Below, one piece after another: positions 1 through 7,414 of a stretch of 7,414 nt of DNA (its first letter is position 1; each line of letters starts with the position of its first letter). The translations under genes and the position numbers were made by a program. Source of the DNA: an uncultured Eubacteriales bacterium (lineage in GTDB: Bacteria > Bacillota_A > Clostridia > Christensenellales > Aristaeellaceae). The notes under the pieces were generated by a model. It saw only the letters and a list, made by a program, of their open reading frames with translations. It was not told the origin of the DNA and searched no databases. The stretch lies in contig USEE01000063.1 in NCBI GenBank assembly GCA_900553645.1, positions 1 to 7,414 of the forward strand. Reading direction: 5' to 3'.

Positions 1-274
1 CACATTAACGGTACTCATCTCGGCCTGACTGTCCCAGCCCTTCAGCGCGCCGGTCAGCTTGTCGATTTCGTATTGCAGCCTTGAGGCCTCGGCCTCCAGC
101 TCCAGCACCTCGTTTAAGTCGCTGGCCGAGCTGGTCAGTTCCTTCACGCGGTTCAGCTGCGTGCGGTACGTATCCAGCCGGAGTGCCGTATCGCTGTACT
201 GGGACGAAACGTCCTGCGCGCTTACCTCGCTGCGGGTAACACTGCCTATGCCGCGCATCTGCTCGACAAATCGC
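1..274 (-). CDS. DUF4349 domain, C-terminal part of the anti-sigma protein (partial, cut by adapter and by window edge)
   Basis: Reading the minus strand from 273 gives 91 open codons running off the left edge. It starts RFVEQMRGIGSVTRSEVSAQ and continues through QDVSSQYSDTALRL. The pattern G-x-V-x-S-x-x-x-x-x-Q-D-V-[ST]-x-Q-Y-x-D, then a long charged helical stretch (about residues 35-80 of the fragment, likely coiled coil) ending in MSTVNV, is the DUF4349 signature (family knowledge). It matches the second half of the domain whose first half is at 308-1004 on the same strand, so I infer that both are one gene. The two parts are in different frames and separated by an adapter. In this frame the adapter translates as LLYTSDAADE, a familiar contaminant peptide. 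The usual C-terminal membrane segment of DUF4349 proteins would lie left of the window. A gene caller may start this piece at the internal ATG at 258; that is not a real start. Confidence 0.72.
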
Positions 275-307
275 TCGTCGGCAGCGTCAGATGTGTATAA
301 GAGACAG
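275..307 (+). other. Illumina Nextera Read 1 adapter with Tn5 mosaic end (sequencing artefact)
   Basis: The 33 bases match the whole Nextera transposase Read 1 adapter: a 14-base primer tail TCGTCGGCAGCGTC at 275-288, then the 19-base Tn5 mosaic end AGATGTGTATAAGAGACAG at 289-307. A perfect 33-base match to a synthetic oligonucleotide is not natural sequence. Its orientation says that the genomic insert began at 308 and continued rightward, so the join at 274/275 is chimeric. It sits inside a coding region and shifts the frame. Confidence 0.97.
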
Positions 308-1004
308 CGCCATACTTGGTCAGCAGGCTCTTTATCTCGCTAAGGTCATTGTCGAAATCGCCGGTATCGATATTCAGCGTCGCACTGCGCAGCCGCTTGG
401 CCATGCTCGTACTGCCTGAATCGCCGTCCACGTCGAGTATGCCGCCCGAGGACGTTGCGCCCAAAGCGTCACTGCCAGAATAGCTATACTTGGGCTGTAC
501 CGCGTCAGCGGCCTCGTCATCACTTTCGGCCGTCGCCATCAGCGCATATTCGGTCGGCAGCGCGTCCGATTCGCCATCCAAGCTTACGGCCATGGCGCGC
601 GGTGTGGAGGAATAAACTTCGTATTCGTTCTCAATCACCGCCGTAGGCTGTGCGGTCATATTTGCCATATTGCCGCTCATGCGGTTTATCACCGTCGCAC
701 CCGCCAGCAGTACAAAGCCCGCCGCCACGCCCGAAAGCGCCCTTACCCAGCCGCGCGTGCGGCGCGTACTGTGCTCCTCGCGCACGGCTTTGCGCCAGCC
801 GCGCTCGAATTCGACGGGCGTTTCCAGATCGTCGTCCATATGCGCAAGCATATCGCGCACGGACGCAAGCTGTTCGTATTCCTCCCGGCAGTCCGCGCAC
901 GCCGCCATATGTGTGCGCATCGCGTCGGCCATTTCGTCTGACAGTTCGCCGTCGAGAAGCGGATGGACGTTTTTCTGGAATTCCTCGCAGTTCACAGGCA
1001 CCAT
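308..1004 (-). CDS. Anti-sigma factor: zinc-finger (zf-HC2), one transmembrane helix, DUF4349 ectodomain (N-terminal part, broken by adapter)
   Basis: This is probably the membrane-bound inhibitor of the ECF sigma factor encoded just upstream. The ATG at 1004 has a strong AAGGAGGGG site 7 bases before it. Visible domains are a zinc-binding anti-sigma motif with Cys6 and His32-x3-Cys36-x2-Cys39 (HMAACADC), a cytoplasmic linker to about residue 85, one membrane helix at about 86-106 (around GVAAGFVLLAGATVI), a low-complexity acidic extracytoplasmic linker to about 200, and the start of DUF4349 from about 203 (LRSATLNIDTGDFDNDL, then LLTKYG). Genuine sequence stops at 308. The open frame continues through the adapter to 246 and adds a false tail containing SYTHLTLPT. 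Zf-HC2 anti-sigmas bind sigma regions 2 and 4 in the cytoplasm (family knowledge). The DUF4349 part would face outward and may sense an envelope signal (inference). The sigma-anti-sigma gap is 68 bases, consistent with one operon. Confidence 0.85.
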
Positions 1005-1072
1005 ATCCGCCCCTCCTTACTAAGATTTATGTTTAAGCGATTTTACGGCGCGCGCCCTCAAATCGTTTACAT

Positions 1073-1660
1073 CTATTTGACGGCCGTGCGTCCAAAAAGT
1101 TCCGACTGTTTTGACAGTATTTCCCGCAATTTTTCGCGTCCGCGACTTATGCGCGATTTTATTGTGCCCACGTTTGCGTCCAGTATCGACGCGATTTCGT
1201 CGTATGAATAGCCCTTGACATCGCGCAGTATTATCGCGGCGCGCATATCGTCGGGCAGGGACTGTATCGCCTGATTGAGCGCGTTCTGCTTTTCTACGCG
1301 CAGGCCGTGTTCCTCGGGCGTATCGCCGGTGTCGGTTGGCGACCAGCCGTTATCCACCAGCGAATCCAGAGACGTTACCTTGCGCGCCTTGCGCCGCCTG
1401 AGTTCGTCCAGGCAGGTATTCATCGTAATGCGGTATATCCATGTGGCCAGCGCGGACTGACCCTTGAACGAGCCCATCGCGCGATATATGCGCACCATTG
1501 CCTCCTGCGCGCAGTCCTGCGCATCTTCGCGATTGCCCATCATGCGCAGGGCAATGGCATAGATGCGGCTTTCATGCGACTGCATCAGTTCCTCAAAAGC
1601 CTGCACGTCGCCCTTACAGGCGCGCCTTAAAAGCAGCTCGTCGCCTTGCACACGTATCAC
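1073..1660 (-). CDS. ECF-type RNA polymerase sigma-70 factor (SigW/RpoE-like)
   Basis: The 195-residue protein has the size and two-domain build of extracytoplasmic-function sigma factors. Region 2 spans about 21-90: AFEELMQSHESRIYAIALRM, then the core-binding and -10 reading stretch with DAQDCAQEAMVRIYRAMGSF and ATWIYRITMNTCLDELRRR. A variable acidic linker at 97-125 follows. Region 4 spans about 127-180: LPDDMRAAIILRDVKGYSYDEIA, then the -35-binding helix-turn-helix GTIKSRISRGREKLR. ECF factors of this type redirect RNA polymerase to envelope-stress promoters and are held inactive by a cognate membrane anti-sigma, here the next gene. The start is GTG at 1660 with only a weak GCGGGG site. 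A second GTG at 1653, three codons in, is equally possible. The stop is TAG at 1073. The specific regulon cannot be read from the window. Confidence 0.93.
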   Translation of the reverse strand: MIRVQGDELLLRRACKGDVQAFEELMQSHESRIYAIALRMMGNREDAQDCAQEAMVRIYRAMGSFKGQSALATWIYRITMNTCLDELRRRKARKVTSLDSLVDNGWSPTDTGDTPEEHGLRVEKQNALNQAIQSLPDDMRAAIILRDVKGYSYDEIASILDANVGTIKSRISRGREKLREILSKQSELFGRTAVK

Positions 1661-1690
1661 CCCGCTTAAAATTAATCATCATTCAAATTT

Positions 1691-1719
1691 ATTATACACT
1701 CTTTTAGTTTAGTTTGGAA
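1691..1719 (-). promoter_or_regulatory. Candidate proximal promoter of the sigma/anti-sigma operon
   Basis: On the minus strand a perfect TATAAT (1691-1696) lies 17 bases after a poor -35, TTCCAA (1714-1719, 3 of 6). This places a transcript start about 24 bases before the GTG at 1660. The surroundings are strongly AT-rich compared with the genes. No ECF-type (GAAC/CGTA-like) autoregulatory promoter is clear on this strand. Confidence 0.45.
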
Positions 1720-1802
1720 GTGGTATTTTATCCTTGAAACCGACCATTTGTCGCACGTATGGGCTTTGAGCCAGATTCGGGCTTTTGACTTAACATAATG
1801 TA

Positions 1803-1831
1803 TTTATTGATGGGAGCAAAATATTCGTCAA
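1803..1831 (-). promoter_or_regulatory. Candidate distal sigma-A-type promoter of the sigma/anti-sigma operon
   Basis: The minus strand reads TTGACG (1826-1831, 5 of 6 to consensus), a 17-base spacer, then AATAAA (1803-1808, 4 of 6). It begins right after the fucosidase terminator hairpin, so a transcript from here would be independent of the fucosidase and have a leader of about 135 bases. It is an alternative to, or works together with, the TATAAT at 1691. Confidence 0.35.
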
Positions 1832-1839
1832 AGAGAATT

Positions 1840-1866
1840 GCCTCCTGCGCGCGCGGCGCAGGAGGC
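1840..1866 (-). terminator. Terminator hairpin after the fucosidase gene
   Basis: This is a perfect 11-bp GC-rich inverted repeat (GCCTCCTGCGC at 1840-1850 and its complement at 1856-1866) with a 5-base loop. It starts 13 bases beyond the fucosidase stop codon. On the minus strand the hairpin is followed by AATTCTCTTTG, a mediocre U-tract, so termination may be partial. The opposite side (GATTGTATATGG) is no better, and there is no + strand gene to end here. Confidence 0.6.
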
Positions 1867-1879
1867 GATTGTATATGGC

Positions 1880-3250
1880 TTAGTAAATGGCTATTCCGAT
1901 GTCCTCGACGCGATCGCGCGCGCCGGTTATAAGCACCTTTACTGCGTCGGTCTTTATGCTGGAATGACCCGGCACTGCCAACGGATTTATCTGCTTATGG
2001 CCTATGGTCGCGCCGCCGGTCAGGTCGCGCCATATGCCGAAGCTGTCGCGGAGCATTATGCGGTAGCCGGTAACGCGCTGGCCCCTGGCGATCTGCTCGC
2101 GCAGTTCGACGTAGCTTATCTCCCGCTCCTCGCCCAGTTCCACGACGAACTCGCACTGGTTGCCCGCAGGGCGGTCGGTGCGCTCGACCTTTTTGCCCTC
2201 GGCCAGGTTCCTGCCGAACGCAGCCTTGAGTGCCTGACCAAATTCGGCAAGGCGCTTTACGTCGCGCGGGTCGAACTTGCCGTTGGGCATGGGCGGTATG
2301 TTCAGGTTGAAGCACGCGTTATGGCCAACCGAGTTCATATAGGTCTTCATCAGGCGCTCGACCGAATACGGCTCCTCATTTTCATGATAGAACCAGCCGG
2401 GACGGATGGACATATCAACCTCCGCGCCGCAGAAGTTCAGTCCGCGTGAGCGCGCGATAAGCTCGTCGCTGCCTATGTCCTCCTGAGGGTTGTACAGGTA
2501 GTCCAGCTGATCCACGCCCTCGACATACCACGGGCCGGGGCCGCTCTGCGGGCCGCTGGTCAGCTTGCACAGCTCGTTGGGCACGACCGCCCACTCGCTT
2601 ACGCGGCTGGTACCGGCCTCGTTGCCTATCCAGCGGGTGTCGGGGCCGCCGTCCTGGAATATGACGGCGCCCGGCTGATACTTGCGCACCAACTCGATTA
2701 TGCCGGGGAAGTCGTACACCTGCTTGCGGCCGTTGGGGCCTTCGCCGCACGCGCCGTCCAGCCATACGCAGAATATATCGCCGTAGCCAGTCAGCAGCTC
2801 GGTAAGCTGCTTCTTATAATAATCGTTATACTCGTCGGTGCCGTAGAGCTTGGAATTCCTGTCCCACGGAGAGAGGTAGAAGCCGAATTCGATACCGCCG
2901 CGGCGGCACGCCTCGGACGCTTCCTTAACCACGTCGATGTCCAGTGGGCAGTTCTTAACCGAATGCTCGGTGTATTTGCTGGGCCACAGGCAGAAGCCGT
3001 CGTGGTGCTTGGCGGTCAGTATCATGCCCTTCATACCGGCGGACTTGATTGCCTCGACCCACTGGTCGCAGTCCAGCTCGGTGGGGTTGAATATGCGCTC
3101 ATCCTCGTCGCCCAGGCCCCACTCAAGGCCGGTATAGGTGTTGGGCGAAAAGTGCACAAACGCATAGAATTCGCGGTCGTACCATTTCATCTGCCTGTCG
3201 GAGGGCGTTACATGCGCGGCCTCGACCAGGAACTTTCTCATCTCGTCCAT
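1880..3250 (-). CDS. Alpha-L-fucosidase, glycoside hydrolase family 29 (GH29-B-like)
   Basis: A retaining exo-fucosidase that would release L-fucose from oligosaccharides. The ATG at 3250 is chosen because AAAAGGAGAT sits just before it; the frame stays open to 3304 but has no ribosome site there. The protein is 456 residues, starting MDEMRKFLVEAAHVTPSDRQ. Family marks are FYAFVHFSPNTYTG near 28-41, TAKHHDGFCLWPS at 79-91 (substrate-contacting His-His at 82-83), GFYLSPWDRN, the nucleophile motif VWLDGACGEG (Asp165), and GPDTRWIGNEAG with Glu211 as likely acid/base. The 46-residue spacing of this Asp/Glu pair resembles the alpha-1,3/1,4-fucosidase subgroup (GH29-B). Residues from about 360 form a small C-terminal beta-sandwich-like part. 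No signal peptide or membrane segment is visible, so it probably acts in the cytoplasm on imported oligosaccharides. The linkage preference is inferred. It has its own promoter and terminator and is transcribed away from the repressor gene. Confidence 0.92.
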   Translation of the reverse strand: MDEMRKFLVEAAHVTPSDRQMKWYDREFYAFVHFSPNTYTGLEWGLGDEDERIFNPTELDCDQWVEAIKSAGMKGMILTAKHHDGFCLWPSKYTEHSVKNCPLDIDVVKEASEACRRGGIEFGFYLSPWDRNSKLYGTDEYNDYYKKQLTELLTGYGDIFCVWLDGACGEGPNGRKQVYDFPGIIELVRKYQPGAVIFQDGGPDTRWIGNEAGTSRVSEWAVVPNELCKLTSGPQSGPGPWYVEGVDQLDYLYNPQEDIGSDELIARSRGLNFCGAEVDMSIRPGWFYHENEEPYSVERLMKTYMNSVGHNACFNLNIPPMPNGKFDPRDVKRLAEFGQALKAAFGRNLAEGKKVERTDRPAGNQCEFVVELGEEREISYVELREQIARGQRVTGYRIMLRDSFGIWRDLTGGATIGHKQINPLAVPGHSSIKTDAVKVLITGARDRVEDIGIAIY

Positions 3251-3255
3251 TGCAG

Positions 3256-3264
3256 ATCTCCTTT
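3256..3264 (-). promoter_or_regulatory. Ribosome binding site fixing the fucosidase start
   Basis: The minus strand reads AAAGGAGAT ending 5 bases before the ATG at 3250. It decides for this start over the ATG at 3304. Just upstream on the transcript is CCGC-GCAA-GCGG (within about 3268-3280), a small 4-bp stem with a GNRA-type loop, possibly fortuitous. Confidence 0.75.
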
Positions 3265-3315
3265 TAACCGCTTGCGCGGCGTGATTAAGCGTATGCCCTT
3301 GCAATTTCCTTCCTC

Positions 3316-3345
3316 ATTATATCATGCCGCGCCGCCATTTGCCAG
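3316..3345 (-). promoter_or_regulatory. Extended -10 promoter of the fucosidase gene
   Basis: On the minus strand TGATATAAT is a perfect extended -10 (TATAAT at 3316-3321, TG at 3323-3324). A weak -35, CTGGCA, lies 18 bases upstream (3340-3345, 4 of 6). The predicted start near 3309 gives a leader of about 60 bases. The promoter does not overlap the BlaI-type operators, the nearer of which begins 46 bases upstream of this -35. Confidence 0.6.
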
Positions 3346-3391
3346 ACATATTTATTTTGTGCGATGATTTTATCGCGTTTATGTGCCGCGT

Positions 3392-3405
3392 TATACAATT
3401 GTATA
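3392..3405. promoter_or_regulatory. BlaI/MecI-type operator 1
   Basis: A perfect 14-bp palindrome, TATACAATTGTATA, containing TACA-NN-TGTA, the conserved core of BlaI/MecI operators. It ends exactly at the base before the -35 box of the repressor promoter. A bound repressor dimer would sit against RNA polymerase. Confidence 0.82.
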
Positions 3406-3434
3406 TTGACAGGTAAGTTATACAGTTGTATAAT
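3406..3434 (+). promoter_or_regulatory. Consensus sigma-A promoter of the repressor/peptidase operon
   Basis: TTGACA (3406-3411), a 17-base spacer and TATAAT (3429-3434) match the vegetative consensus at every hexamer position. The transcript should start near 3441, about 60 bases before the ATG at 3501. Such a strong promoter is expected to be held down by the two flanking operators and to fire when the repressor is removed. Confidence 0.88.
3419..3432. promoter_or_regulatory. BlaI/MecI-type operator 2
   Basis: TATACAGTTGTATA is a palindrome except at its central pair, again with TACA-NN-TGTA. The dyad extends by one more pair to 3418-3433. It covers the end of the spacer and most of the -10 box, so repressor and polymerase cannot bind together. 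Its centre is 27 bp from that of operator 1, so the two dimers would sit on roughly opposite-to-oblique faces of the helix. Confidence 0.82.
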
Positions 3435-3500
3435 TTATTCATAGGCAAAATATGTTTTGAACAGCCAATATCAATTTCATTTGAGAAGGAGGGATTGCTT

Positions 3501-3893
3501 ATGAAGCGACTGCCCGATGCAGAGTTCGACGTGATGGCGTGCATATGGCAATGCGACGCGCCCGTGACCAGCGGCGAAATAATGCGGCGCATGGGCAGCG
3601 AGCGCGGCTGGAAAACACCCGCGCTGATAACGCTCTTAAACCGGCTGATAGAGCGCGGCTTTCTGCGCAGTGAAAAGCCGGGCAGGGAGCGGCTGTACTA
3701 CCCGCTGGTTGCGCGCGACGAATACCTGCAATACGAAACCGAACACTTTTTAAGCCGCGTGCACGGCGGATCCCTGCGCAGTCTGATGAGCGCGCTCGGC
3801 GGCGGGAATGAACTGACACGCGCCGACTGCGAGGAGCTGATAAGCTGGGCGCGCGCCAAGGAAGCCGAATGTCCGGACGAGCGACAACATTGA
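3501..3893 (+). CDS. BlaI/MecI-family transcriptional repressor
   Basis: This winged-helix repressor (130 residues, normal for the family at about 120-130) starts at the ATG with AAGGAGGG 7 bases upstream; the frame is open further up but without a ribosome site. The N-terminal KRLPDAEFDVMACIWQC is the typical family opening. The DNA-binding domain covers about 5-75, with VTSGEIMRRM and recognition helix KTPALITLLNRLIERGFL, then a wing ending ERLYYPLV. The C-terminal dimerisation part (about 76-118) has HGGSLRSLMSAL and ELTRADCEELISWA. In BlaI and MecI the protease-sensitive bond is Asn-Phe in this region; here the aligned pair is Ala98-Leu99. It should bind the two TACA-NN-TGTA operators upstream and repress its own operon. 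The M56 peptidase gene follows after 7 bases, and a signal through it is expected to inactivate this repressor. Confidence 0.93.
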   Translation: MKRLPDAEFDVMACIWQCDAPVTSGEIMRRMGSERGWKTPALITLLNRLIERGFLRSEKPGRERLYYPLVARDEYLQYETEHFLSRVHGGSLRSLMSALGGGNELTRADCEELISWARAKEAECPDERQH

Positions 3894-3900
3894 AAGGCAG

Positions 3901-5889
3901 GTGCGGACTTTGCCTAGATTCATAAGTTCACTTTTTACCTGCTCACTGGCCATGAGCATTGCCGCGCTTGCGATAATGCTGTGCGGGATGCTTGTCAGGC
4001 GCTTTGCACGCACGCGCAGTATATCGGCGCGGGTAGTGCGGCGGGTGTGGATAATCGTCGCGCTGGGCTTTGCGTGCCCGGTTCGGCCGCAGTTTTCGCA
4101 CATTATCAGTCTGCCTCCGCGCGCACAGTCGGCGGTCGGCGCAATTTCGACAGGCATACGCGCCGCACTGCCGCGCATTGCCCTGAACGTAAATACAAAC
4201 GTAAATGCGCAGGCTGTGCCAATCAGCGCTGCTCCATCGCCCGCCGTTCAGTTCAGCATGCACGACGCGCTGTTTGCCGTGTGGCTGTGCGGTGCGATTG
4301 CGGTGCTGGCCGTTGGCATAGTGCGGCACGTGCGGTTCAGGCATATCGTACTGCGCTGGTCAGAGCCAGCGCCCAACGCTGTGCGCGCGCTTGTATCCAT
4401 GCGGGTTCGTGTGCTGGTTTCGCCCGCCGCGCGCACGCCGATGCTTATCGGACTTTTCAGGCTAATTATCGTACTGCCGCGCGCCGATTACCCGCCTGAT
4501 GAGCTGCGGCTGATACTTGCTCACGAACAGGCGCATATGGAAGGCGGCGACATCGCGTTAAAGTACCTTATGCTTGTCGTACGCGCGATGCACTGGTTCA
4601 ACCCGATCATGCCCGCGATTACGCGTGAGATTGAGCTTGCATGTGAACAGTCATGCGACGAGCGCACGCTGGCTTCGCAGTCTGGCCAGCGCATGACATA
4701 CGTATCGGCGATACTTACCTCAGCCTTTAACCAGCACACATCACCGCTGACAACCGATTTTTCAGGAGGAAAGCACGTCATGAAACGCAGGATAAGCGCT
4801 ATGTTCAAGCAAAAGACCCGGCGCATGGGCGCGCTGATTACCTTAACCGCCCTGGCGATCACCGCAATCTTTCCCTCATTTGCGGCGCTAGCGCTTGAGG
4901 ACTCGGCCACGGCACAGCCGTATTCCGACGAATACACGTTGCGCGGCGGCGATTCGGCCGACGACATTCTGCACGACATATTCGCGCTGGCGCTCACGCG
5001 CGTCGGCGACGGGCAGGGCGATCTGCCCTATGCCCAGTTGATAATCGCCAGCGACAACGTGGACGACTTCATCCGTTACGCACTGGACGCGTGCGCGCGT
5101 CTGGAAGCAAGCGCCGATTTCGACACAGCCGCCGCGCAGATGGTCGAAGATCACGAGCTGGGGCAATGGGCCGTGGATACATTGCGCGCCGCGCCCGAGG
5201 GCTTTTCGGTAAACAGACTGCTTACGGCCGAATCGGATGGGCTTTATGCGGCGATGCTCAGTCTGCTGGAACGCGGTTCACTTGACCAGCAAAGCATACT
5301 GTGCGCTGGCTGGCTGTACGAACTGGCCGAAGCCGACGACGTCCGAGTCGATAAGGCCGGGGCGCTGGACGCTGTTACTGCGTGGTCGCGTGCAACCGGC
5401 ACGAATATGTTCGGCATACTTGACGGCAGCACGTCCGCGCCTATCGCTGATGCGGATTCCGCGAATGAGGAAAGTGTTGCCGCACTAGACCGCATACTCG
5501 CTCTGGCGCTAAACAGCGCTGCCGGGGACGACGACCTCCAGCGCGCGCGCACGATAATCGCCACCGGCGATGTGGAAGGCACGATCTGCGCGGCGTTGCC
5601 GATCAGCGGCAAAAACGTTTCGGAGCAGACCAGCGAGGACATACGCCTCATGCTGAGACTGGCCTCGGGCGAAATCACGCCCGCAATGACGCAAATGCTT
5701 ATTTCTGGCCAATCCGATGCAAAAGGCTTGCTGTGCGCGGCATGGTACAGCGAGATAATCGATTCTAGCCTTAACAACATGCAAACCTTACCCGATGGCG
5801 CGGAGCGTACCGCACTAAGCGAAACCATAGTTCAAATGCAATCTGCACTTGAGACGTGGCGCGACATAAGCAAGCTTGACATACCTTAA
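3901..5889 (+). CDS. BlaR1/MecR1-type M56 membrane metallopeptidase with a duplicated, non-PBP extracytoplasmic sensor
   Basis: Signal-transducing zinc protease, 662 residues from GTG 3901. A TTG at 3910 with better-spaced AGGTG is an alternative start. Predicted membrane helices lie at about 8-30, 41-60, 123-142 and 310-330. The cytoplasmic M56 domain between the third and fourth has PMLIGLFRLIIVLP, the zinc motif HEQAH (His208, Glu209, His212), MHWFNPI and CEQSCDE, in which Glu249-x3-Asp253 fits the third ligand. The family motif FSGGKHVMKRRI (to about 298) precedes the last helix, in the area where BlaR1 self-cleaves. Residues about 331-662 lie outside and replace the penicillin-binding sensor of BlaR1. 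There is no SxxK/SxN/KTG set, but two related units at about 351-510 and 524-655. Translation is probably coupled to the repressor gene (7-base gap). By family analogy ligand binding outside activates the protease, which relieves repression. The ligand is unknown. Confidence 0.9.
   Translation: MRTLPRFISSLFTCSLAMSIAALAIMLCGMLVRRFARTRSISARVVRRVWIIVALGFACPVRPQFSHIISLPPRAQSAVGAISTGIRAALPRIALNVNTNVNAQAVPISAAPSPAVQFSMHDALFAVWLCGAIAVLAVGIVRHVRFRHIVLRWSEPAPNAVRALVSMRVRVLVSPAARTPMLIGLFRLIIVLPRADYPPDELRLILAHEQAHMEGGDIALKYLMLVVRAMHWFNPIMPAITREIELACEQSCDERTLASQSGQRMTYVSAILTSAFNQHTSPLTTDFSGGKHVMKRRISAMFKQKTRRMGALITLTALAITAIFPSFAALALEDSATAQPYSDEYTLRGGDSADDILHDIFALALTRVGDGQGDLPYAQLIIASDNVDDFIRYALDACARLEASADFDTAAAQMVEDHELGQWAVDTLRAAPEGFSVNRLLTAESDGLYAAMLSLLERGSLDQQSILCAGWLYELAEADDVRVDKAGALDAVTAWSRATGTNMFGILDGSTSAPIADADSANEESVAALDRILALALNSAAGDDDLQRARTIIATGDVEGTICAALPISGKNVSEQTSEDIRLMLRLASGEITPAMTQMLISGQSDAKGLLCAAWYSEIIDSSLNNMQTLPDGAERTALSETIVQMQSALETWRDISKLDIP
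4951..5868 (+). repeat. Tandem duplication within the sensor domain (protein-level repeat)
   Basis: Residues 360-395 (IFALALTRV...DLPYAQLIIASDNVDDFI...AL) align with 532-566 (ILALALNSA...DLQRARTIIATGDVEGTI...AL) at about 15 identities in 36 with one gap. Further on, ILCAGWLYEL (466-475) matches LLCAAWYSEI (610-619), and the ends ALDAVTAWSRATG and MQSALETWRDIS look alike. The second copy is shorter, with about 27 residues missing between the two matched blocks. All four cysteines of the sensor fall two per copy: 398 and 468, then 563 and 612. No DNA-level repeat is obvious, so the duplication is old. Confidence 0.72.
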
Positions 5890-5903
5890 AGCACAAACAT
5901 AGT

Positions 5904-5947
5904 GCGCGGCAGACTTCGTTCAAACGAATCTGCCGCGCTTCTTATTT
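5904..5947 (+). terminator. Rho-independent terminator of the repressor/peptidase operon
   Basis: GCGCGGCAGA (5904-5913) pairs with TCTGCCGCGC (5929-5938). With a one-base bulge the inner TTCG/CGAA continues the stem around a short loop. TTCTTATTT follows at 5939-5947. It begins 14 bases after the TAA at 5889. The convergent gene ends at 5955, and the reverse side lacks a good U-tract, so bidirectional use is possible but weaker. Confidence 0.85.
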
Positions 5948-5954
5948 ATATGCT

Positions 5955-7414
5955 CTAGTTCAGCCTGAACGCGCGCACCTGCATCGCGTCGAGATCGGCA
6001 TGAAGCTGCTGTCCGTCCGGCATGATTACATCGGTGGACTGCGGACTGCTGAACAAATTGAGTATGAACAGCATCTTGCCGCCGCCCGGCAACTGCCACA
6101 GCGTGTGGAAAAGGTTGCGGTTAGTAAGCCGCTCGGTGGGCTGTGCGCCCATCGCGCGCACTATTTCTGCGAGCATGTCAGCCTGATTGAAGGTGGACAT
6201 ATGCCACTTTGCGCCAAACACAATGCAATTGCCCGCCTTAAAGCCCAATACCTTGCCGTCTGCCGCGTCGGTAAGCACAGCTTGTGCGCCCGCGGGCAGA
6301 TCGGTATACACATGCCCGGCGTTAAGCCCGTACACCCTGCGCCCGTTTACAATCAGCGTCTGCGATACGCCTTCGCGCAATGCCGACGGGTTGCGGTTGG
6401 GATAGCAGGCGCACTTGCGCGCGGTATAACCTCCTATGTAATCCTTTAGCACGGTGCAGGTGTTGCCCTGCTCGTCGATCTCAGGCACGGCGGGCGCTAT
6501 GATTACCCTGCCGCCCGCGCGCATGAATTCGACCAGGCGCGTCTGCGCCGCCCGGCTCATACGATCGGACGCGGCCACTATCAGCGGGCGCGATACGTCG
6601 AATGCCTCATCATTCAGATTGACATATTCGCCGCTATAATTGCCGCACATAAGCGTGTACATTATGCCCCGGCGCAGAAAATCCAGCGTCTCGCCGGACG
6701 CGCCGTGCCCCGCGTCGTTAAGTCCCACGGCCTGCGCGTCCTCCCACGTATAGCCTACCTGAACAGACGCGATCTGTTTAGCATGGCTCAGGTCGCGGTT
6801 GTCGATGAGGAACTTGTGGAATTCGCGCATCGCCTCAAACGTATCGTTCAGCGTGCCGTCGGCGTGTATCAGCGCGTTGTAGTCGTAAATATCGCACGTA
6901 TCGCCGCTGCCCGGGAAGTTAGGGCCGCCGGTGTACACGTAATAGTTAACGCCGCGCATACCCACCGCGAGATTGGTCATATAGCACGCCAGCAGGTCAT
7001 TTTTAAGTATCGGCGGCGTGTCGGAGGGTGAACCGCCCGGCATCTCCAGCACGGACGGCGGCATACCCATCGCGCGCAGCATCGCCATGGAATGCTGGAC
7101 ATACAGCGCGTACTGCGGCGTGGGGTTATTCTGCGCCCAGTCCTGATTAAGCGTGTAATAGTGATCCGAGCCGAGCAGGAAGGGTTCATTCATGCGCTTG
7201 GTCAGATCGACAAACAGCGCGTTCATGCCCGGATTGCCGCTGTTGTGGCATATGGGCGCGTTTACGCCCTCGGCGCGCAGCCACGCGGTTATTGTCTCGA
7301 TATAGTCAAAGCAGTTTTCAAGGTAGCACTTCTGCTGATCGCGCACATGGCGCAGCTCGGCCTCGCCGTGGCAGCTTTCCGCAATCGGGCGCACGCTGGC
7401 GAAGTCGGGATAGT
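5955..7414 (-). CDS. Glycoside hydrolase, clan GH-A, GH35 beta-galactosidase-like (5' end outside window)
   Basis: The frame is open from the TAG at 5955 to the right edge; the first visible residues are YPDFASV, and the GTG at 7394 is internal, not a start. About 486 residues are visible. A TIM-barrel end is suggested by the helix LENCFDYIETITAWLRAEGV, GSDHYYTLNQDW, and VLEMPGGSPSDTPPI. The Glu in LEMPGG (codon 7044-7046) is the likely nucleophile, as in the E-x-Q-G-G motif of GH35-type galactosidases. NYYVYTGGPNF and DYNALIHADG follow, as in that family. Downstream, about 255-325 after the GTG codon, a Rossmann-like stretch (LIVAASDRMSRAAQTRLVEF, then GGRVIIAPAVPEID) resembles the amidotransferase-like domain of GH42-type enzymes, and the end looks like a beta-sandwich. 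The acid/base (usually in an NEYG-type motif) would lie upstream, outside the window. Substrate is uncertain; exo-beta-galactosidase is the first guess. It converges on the M56 gene with a 65-base gap. Confidence 0.65.
   Translation of the reverse strand, partial: YPDFASVRPIAESCHGEAELRHVRDQQKCYLENCFDYIETITAWLRAEGVNAPICHNSGNPGMNALFVDLTKRMNEPFLLGSDHYYTLNQDWAQNNPTPQYALYVQHSMAMLRAMGMPPSVLEMPGGSPSDTPPILKNDLLACYMTNLAVGMRGVNYYVYTGGPNFPGSGDTCDIYDYNALIHADGTLNDTFEAMREFHKFLIDNRDLSHAKQIASVQVGYTWEDAQAVGLNDAGHGASGETLDFLRRGIMYTLMCGNYSGEYVNLNDEAFDVSRPLIVAASDRMSRAAQTRLVEFMRAGGRVIIAPAVPEIDEQGNTCTVLKDYIGGYTARKCACYPNRNPSALREGVSQTLIVNGRRVYGLNAGHVYTDLPAGAQAVLTDAADGKVLGFKAGNCIVFGAKWHMSTFNQADMLAEIVRAMGAQPTERLTNRNLFHTLWQLPGGGKMLFILNLFSSPQSTDVIMPDGQQLHADLDAMQVRAFRLN

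Follow-up and report, generated by a model that had tools for sequence, protein, structure and literature searches.

A 7,414-nucleotide stretch of DNA from an uncultured Eubacteriales bacterium (assembly GCA_900553645.1, contig USEE01000063.1, positions 1 to 7,414), here called the window, carries a two-gene unit on its plus strand, in which a gene for an M56 protease begins 7 or 16 nt after the end of a gene for a BlaI-type repressor. This unit is likely to be a BlaR1-like protease relay that bears a lineage-specific, duplicated and probably helical sensor tail. Relays of the BlaR1 type have been known chiefly for their part in beta-lactam resistance. Since the window protein carries an unfamiliar, duplicated domain as its outer sensing part, the signal to which the pair responds is probably a different one from penicillin.

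In the proposed mechanism, the repressor would bind two operators around its own promoter. The protease would span the membrane, its active site facing the cytoplasm and its helical, duplicated tail projecting from the cell. When an envelope or environmental ligand binds, the resulting change in the tail would travel along the last membrane span as far as the protease, and the protease would then cut the repressor and open the operon, and probably unlinked genes too. Gene order, catalytic residues, promoter, operator-like motifs and duplication can be read from the DNA itself; operator binding, the outside position of the tail, its role as sensor and the cleavage of this particular repressor we infer.

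The protease core

The residues of the M56 protein are numbered from the GTG start at 3901, and the start codon equivalent to TTG 3910 is the one used in the homologues P0001 and P0004-P0006. The coding features of the unit are the following.

3501..3893, plus strand: BlaI/MecI-type repressor, 130 aa from ATG 3501 (Pfam PF03965, E 9e-23; MecI 1sd6, E 5e-10)
3901..5889, plus strand: M56 sensor protease, 662 aa from GTG 3901, or 659 aa from TTG 3910
3946..4800, plus strand: Peptidase_M56 domain, residues 16-300 (PF05569, E 2e-37)
4522..4536, plus strand: HEQAH zinc motif, residues 208-212
4645..4659, plus strand: E249xxxD253, counterpart of BlaR1 E242XXXD246
4747..4761, plus strand: putative autocleavage site L283-T-T-D/F287, with BlaR1-like spacing to the conserved Arg
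4834..4890, plus strand: last membrane span by hydropathy, residues 312-330
4891..5886, plus strand: outer tail, residues 331-662, acidic (56 D+E, 20 K+R), all-helical in low-confidence models

Both proteins pass the cut-offs of their families (129.3 versus 31 bits for PF05569, 81.2 versus 22.6 bits for PF03965), and these matches bear out the claim of an earlier reading of the sequence, the original prediction, that the protease and repressor are BlaR1/BlaI-like. In alignment A3, which consists of the window protein and 29 kin taken from a set of 51, the zinc motif residues H208, E209 and H212 are kept in 30/30 rows, as are E249xxxD253, D217, Y267 and R297. The BlaR1 residues named in PMC9834060 are H201EXXH, D210, E242XXXD246, Y261 and the D246-R294' pair, and their counterparts in the window protein are at 208-212, 217, 249-253, 267 and 297. 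Judged by its residues, the M56 protease is complete for catalysis. The same source places the autocleavage of BlaR1 between Ser283 and Phe284, the S4 pocket being occupied by Leu280; in the window protein the candidate F287 lies 10 residues before R297, a distance equal to that from F284 to R294 in BlaR1. Hydropathy gives four hydrophobic stretches (14-32, 41-59, which is weak, 123-141 and 312-330), which fits BlaR1 topology, and the tail is placed outside the cell by analogy because BlaR1 has both its N- and C-termini out.

The predicted outer tail

The region singled out by the original prediction, 4888-5889, corresponds to residues 330-662 of the M56 open reading frame (ORF). As had been claimed, its sensor domain goes unrecognised: residues 331-662 have no significant sequence match in Pfam, NCBIfam or PDB. 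The two structure models obtained for the tail are both of low confidence, with predicted local distance difference test (pLDDT) values of 35.6 and 49.0, and neither has a Foldseek match at E <= 0.001; they are too poor for superposing the two halves, and the two-lobed ligand binder of the original prediction is a possible reading.

Penicillin-binding sensors are marked by the motifs SxxK, SxN and KTG. The tail contains no [KH][TS]G, and its sole SxxK, at 605, is AxxK in the homologues P0002-P0005, so that the reported absence of beta-lactam-binding motifs holds in essence. That the protein is a true BlaR1 or MecR1, a beta-lactam receptor that has diverged, would account for a protease and a repressor of that family, and yet it is extremely improbable: the penicillin-binding domain PF00905 is absent from the M56 protein by Pfam scan, the lone SxxK is not conserved, and the BlaR1 equivalog model NF000326 gives 84.8 bits where its cut-off requires 400, with a match that ends at residue 335. 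On these grounds a penicillin sensor was rejected.

It is possible, if doubtful, that the tail is instead a helical-repeat docking module which reads a partner protein or the status of the cell wall, the signal then arriving via the partner and not via a small ligand. Against this idea, the models have the low pLDDT values just given and no Foldseek match at that threshold, and the structural matches may reflect a common arrangement of helices and nothing more. A duplicated sensor tail on a BlaR1-like relay is the reading preferred here.

Three protein searches with the tail returned only P0001-P0006 and P0037. Over the tail, P0001-P0005 are intact and 91-98% identical to the window, and P0001 represents 292 member sequences. 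P0006 (481 aa) is 97% identical over 37% of the tail and P0037 (221 aa) 82% over 58%; both leave the frame, through either sequencing error or decay. Distant kin of the tail may be missed because two of these searches scored only candidates sharing most words (7997 and 7996 of them). No relative was found in the viral contigs searched for the tail. A genome search with the tail gave weak matches in 12/396 genomes at E <= 0.1, where chance alone would give about 40, and one with an alignment of its two copies gave 1/250 genomes at E <= 0.01, where chance would give about 2.5. Judging by titles and the openings of abstracts, no paper was recognised as covering a tail of this kind on an M56 protein.

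The internal duplication

The tail carries a real, diverged duplication, as far as sequence comparison goes, and it is made up of two pairs of repeated blocks.

4951..5076, plus strand: copy 1, first repeated block, residues 351-392
5209..5340, plus strand: copy 1, second repeated block, residues 437-480 (ILCAGW)
5455..5589, plus strand: copy 2, first repeated block, residues 519-563
5638..5772, plus strand: copy 2, second repeated block, residues 580-624 (LLCAAW)

At the chosen split, the copies align with a Smith-Waterman-type (SW) score of 80, a value reached by 0/2000 shuffles (mean 33.7, standard deviation 5.9); alternative split points give scores of 59-89. BLASTP between the copies finds 35/119 identical residues at E 4e-6, and hhalign gives 81.8% at E 1.1e-5 with Neff 1. 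The duplication is also apparent in P0003, which carries the other of two allele types described below (between-copy score 71, 0/1000 shuffles), and between copy 1 of the window and copy 2 of P0003 (66, 1/1000 shuffles). Taken separately, the block pair 351-392/519-563 scores 47 (1/1000 shuffles) and the pair 437-480/580-624 scores 60 (0/1000), shuffle counts that are flattering because the blocks were picked from the alignment. The middle part, 393-436/564-585, and the end part, 481-510/625-662, are at chance, with 704/1000 and 331/1000 shuffles, respectively, reaching their scores. The claim of two diverged copies of one unit thus stands in that the duplication is above chance, but only the two block pairs align, not the middle and end.

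At the DNA level, 3/7 listed direct repeat pairs are in register and the other four are not. The in-register repeats are of 18 nt (89%, spacing 516), 24 nt (83%, spacing 513) and 23 nt (74%, spacing 432); the drop in spacing from 516 and 513 to 432 is consistent with copy 2 being about 27 residues shorter than copy 1. The shared motifs that had been listed need some respelling: [IL]LCAxW is present at 466 (ILCAGW) and 610 (LLCAAW), and the DL motif at 374 and 545, but the latter reads DL-x2-A-x2-IIA[ST] and not DL-x3, and the supposed common LALAL holds only for copy 2 (533), copy 1 having FALAL (361).

It could be argued that the halves are non-homologous and that both are simply alanine-rich helical sequence of similar look, given that only two blocks align and that, in a control with 405 natural segments, the maxima were 79 against copy 1 and 75 against copy 2, compared with 80 for the pair itself. 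This null is biased because L004-L015 within it were selected for similarity out of 396 genomes, and both maxima come from members of that selected group (L006 and L008); outside it, the best segments reach 49 and 43. Together with the shuffle results for both allele types, the equal order of the blocks and the DNA repeats at 513-516 nt, this makes an origin of the halves without common descent very unlikely.

Cysteines and allele types of the tail

The tail has Cys at 398, 468, 563 and 612. The original prediction had paired 398 with 468 and 563 with 612 as one disulfide per copy, a reading which is rejected. C468 and C612, within LCAxW, are the only corresponding Cys positions; C398 is not part of the repeated blocks, and in the alignment it can be brought opposite C563 only through a gap of 6 residues, so the two are not equivalent. 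Among the five homologues that span position 563 intact, it is Cys in P0001 and Tyr in P0002-P0005, so C563 is lost in 4/5; P0037, which is out of frame elsewhere, has Cys there. The number of tail Cys is 4 in the window and 5, 3, 3, 3 and 3 in P0001-P0005. A 398-468 bond within copy 1 is possible.

Variation within the tail is concentrated in one block of copy 2.

5581..5715, plus strand: variable block of copy 2 with two allele types, residues 561-605

Counted over six sequences (P0006 excluded), 21/46 columns are variable at 560-605, compared with 13/229 at 331-559, 9/57 at 606-662 and 29/327 at 1-330, a stretch that fewer of the sequences reach; columns 331-559 of the tail are thus less variable than 1-330. 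The window, P0001 and P0037 have one allele type and P0002-P0005 the other. Position 438 (N/S) occurs in all four combinations with the two types, a pattern that fits recombination or repeated mutation. The variable block overlaps a stretch of copy 2 that has no alignable counterpart in copy 1 and may therefore form the specific part of a binding face, and the two allele types offer a natural comparison for locating the ligand-contact region. A more far-reaching, and fairly unlikely, view is that the tail is a new sensor fold, duplicated in one lineage and moved onto a common BlaR1-like relay, with block 561-605 in two allele types recombining within the species group, as might be expected of a receptor whose ligand keeps changing, for instance a peptide or an antibiotic made by a competitor.

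The repressor, its promoter and operator-like sites

The control region and the end of the unit contain the following elements.

3394..3403, plus strand: operator-like palindrome TACAATTGTA, exact core, directly 5' of the -35 element
3406..3434, plus strand: sigma-70-type promoter TTGACA-17-TATAAT (12/12)
3421..3430, plus strand: operator-like palindrome TACAGTTGTA, exact core, sharing the first two bases of the -10 element
5904..5938, plus strand: probable terminator of the two-gene operon, a hairpin followed by a T-rich tail (-25.9 kcal/mol, z -5.9), missed by a simple terminator pattern scan

The repressor promoter is thus flanked by two exact TACANNTGTA sites. A TACA/TGTA core is the operator reported for BlaI/MecI/CopY in PMC7253601, and as a motif it stands at the window repressor's own promoter at 3394-3403 and 3421-3430. 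For BlaI proteins of another Clostridium, PMC8457756 describes self-regulation and paired sites, with a different motif. The telling point is that the exact pair of cores flanks the repressor promoter, not the number of matches.

The kin add support for the relay: 21 regions upstream of their M56 genes hold 3 copies of the strict core (simulated mean 0.085; 0/1000 reach 3), and none was found elsewhere in the 93,230 bases of the 21 loci. Several observations weigh against the favoured relay. The strict core is limited to 3/21 of these kin regions, and the stretch tested, -700 to -300, was selected after a first look. Allowing at most one mismatch, 3 operator matches are present in the window against 1.10 expected, and 17/200 shuffles reach 3; the 10-base core alone is described in PMC7253601 as a poor predictor of binding. 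The BlaI cleavage site is Asn101-Phe102 (PMC9834060), and its counterpart here, aligned through MecI, is Ala98-Leu99. The LxxxF at 283-287 is not universal, with Leu in 16/30 and Phe in 13/30 A3 rows. Finally, the three protein searches found no distant relatives of the tail and thus lend no support to a conserved binding site.

Palindromes of the form [TG]ACANNTGT[AC] were also seen 300-700 bases upstream of the M56 ORF in L021, L023, L024, L026 and L032, giving 6 sites in 5/21 loci (simulated mean 0.3; 0/1000 reach 6) and none elsewhere in the loci.

Relation to known systems

With BlaR1-BlaI and MecR1-MecI of staphylococci (8exp, 1sd6), the window system shares the gene pair, the M56 catalytic residues, four spans, an LxxxF loop at equal distance from the conserved Arg, the repressor family and the TACA/TGTA operator core. 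It differs in that its protease has a duplicated, probably helical tail in place of a penicillin-binding sensor, in that no beta-lactamase or penicillin-binding protein is among the window proteins scanned, and in the Ala-Leu of its repressor where MecI has Asn-Phe. The BlaI (Rv1846c) and BlaR1 homologue of Mycobacterium tuberculosis likewise include an M56 protease without a penicillin-binding sensor (PMC9834060), but the latter is described in a passage of that source as having no equivalent sensor domain, whereas the window protein has a tail of 332 residues. The CopY/TcrY copper repressors share the repressor family and the 10-base operator core, but the bases flanking the window cores do not fit the RNYKACANNTGTMRNY given in PMC7253601. 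A copper repressor was rejected, as the 130 aa of the window protein contain no CxC and score 62.1 bits with TIGR02698 against a cut-off of 121.95.

Beyond the close homologues, the next M56 proteins are 24-35% identical to the window protein, and 29/30 of these matches (P0007-P0036) end at residue 302-357. In genomes around Candidatus Onthenecus (L001), M56 proteins occur in 16/396 at E <= 1e-20 and in 13/250 at E <= 1e-35, the two sets overlapping. These related Clostridia share the protease core with the window system, and a BlaI relative is present at E <= 1e-8 in 33/34 fetched M56 loci (L001 and L002 being one place): the pairing of BlaI and M56 genes is common. Their tails are not detectably related to that of the window: none is like it among 51 kin tails, 50 of them distinct (best E 0.86), or among 12 further ones (best E 0.20), and none of the 29 kin scanned with Pfam has a penicillin-binding domain. 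Recognised tails are RCC1 (2 members) and DUF4825, LCP, PG_binding_1, DUF4901 and SH3_3 (1 each), the rest being unassigned; in the closest kin, the tails that by eye look SH3- and PepSY-like, the PepSY label being our own reading, are unlike the window tail. Unfamiliar M56 tails are therefore common among the kin examined. The phrase "undescribed signalling system" was accordingly too strong. The novelty is one more sensor tail, lineage-specific, on a known kind of relay, and it is real but modest. Together with the window case, the differing tails of kin suggest that the BlaR1-type relay serves Clostridia as a general socket into which outer sensors can be fitted.

In L028 and L034, the M56 tails contain repeated GDGxLWxWG-like motifs, and by eye these were taken as the two RCC1 (beta-propeller) members.

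Neighbouring genes

The neighbouring genes noted in the window lie on the minus strand.

249-1004, minus strand: zf-HC2 anti-sigma protein, which follows the sigma factor and runs into adapter
1076-1660, minus strand: extracytoplasmic function (ECF)-type sigma factor
1883-3253, minus strand: GH29-type alpha-L-fucosidase, divergent from the repressor gene
5958-7394, minus strand: part of a GLMA/GH35-like glycosidase, nearly to the window edge

An exact adapter sequence, AGATGTGTATAAGAGACAG, which we take to be the Nextera mosaic-end adapter, is found at 289-307 (0 expected). Because of this exact adapter and of the adapter-like residues VSYTHLTLPTSDL in which the anti-sigma ORF ends, the first 307 or so bases may be a false join to the remainder.

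The two glycosidase genes raise the question of whether the unit controls them and senses a glycan breakdown product: the fucosidase gene is divergent from it and the GLMA/GH35-like gene converges on the operon. This is quite unlikely, as the operator cores lie on either side of the promoter of the repressor itself, with the best candidate for a fucosidase promoter (3345-3316) some 50 bp off, and as no BlaI or M56 gene was found at E <= 1e-8 in 9/9 GH29 loci, each of about 4.3 kb, fetched from other genomes. The window fucosidase itself has relatives of up to 60% identity in other Clostridia and is matched in 9/391 genomes at E <= 1e-120.
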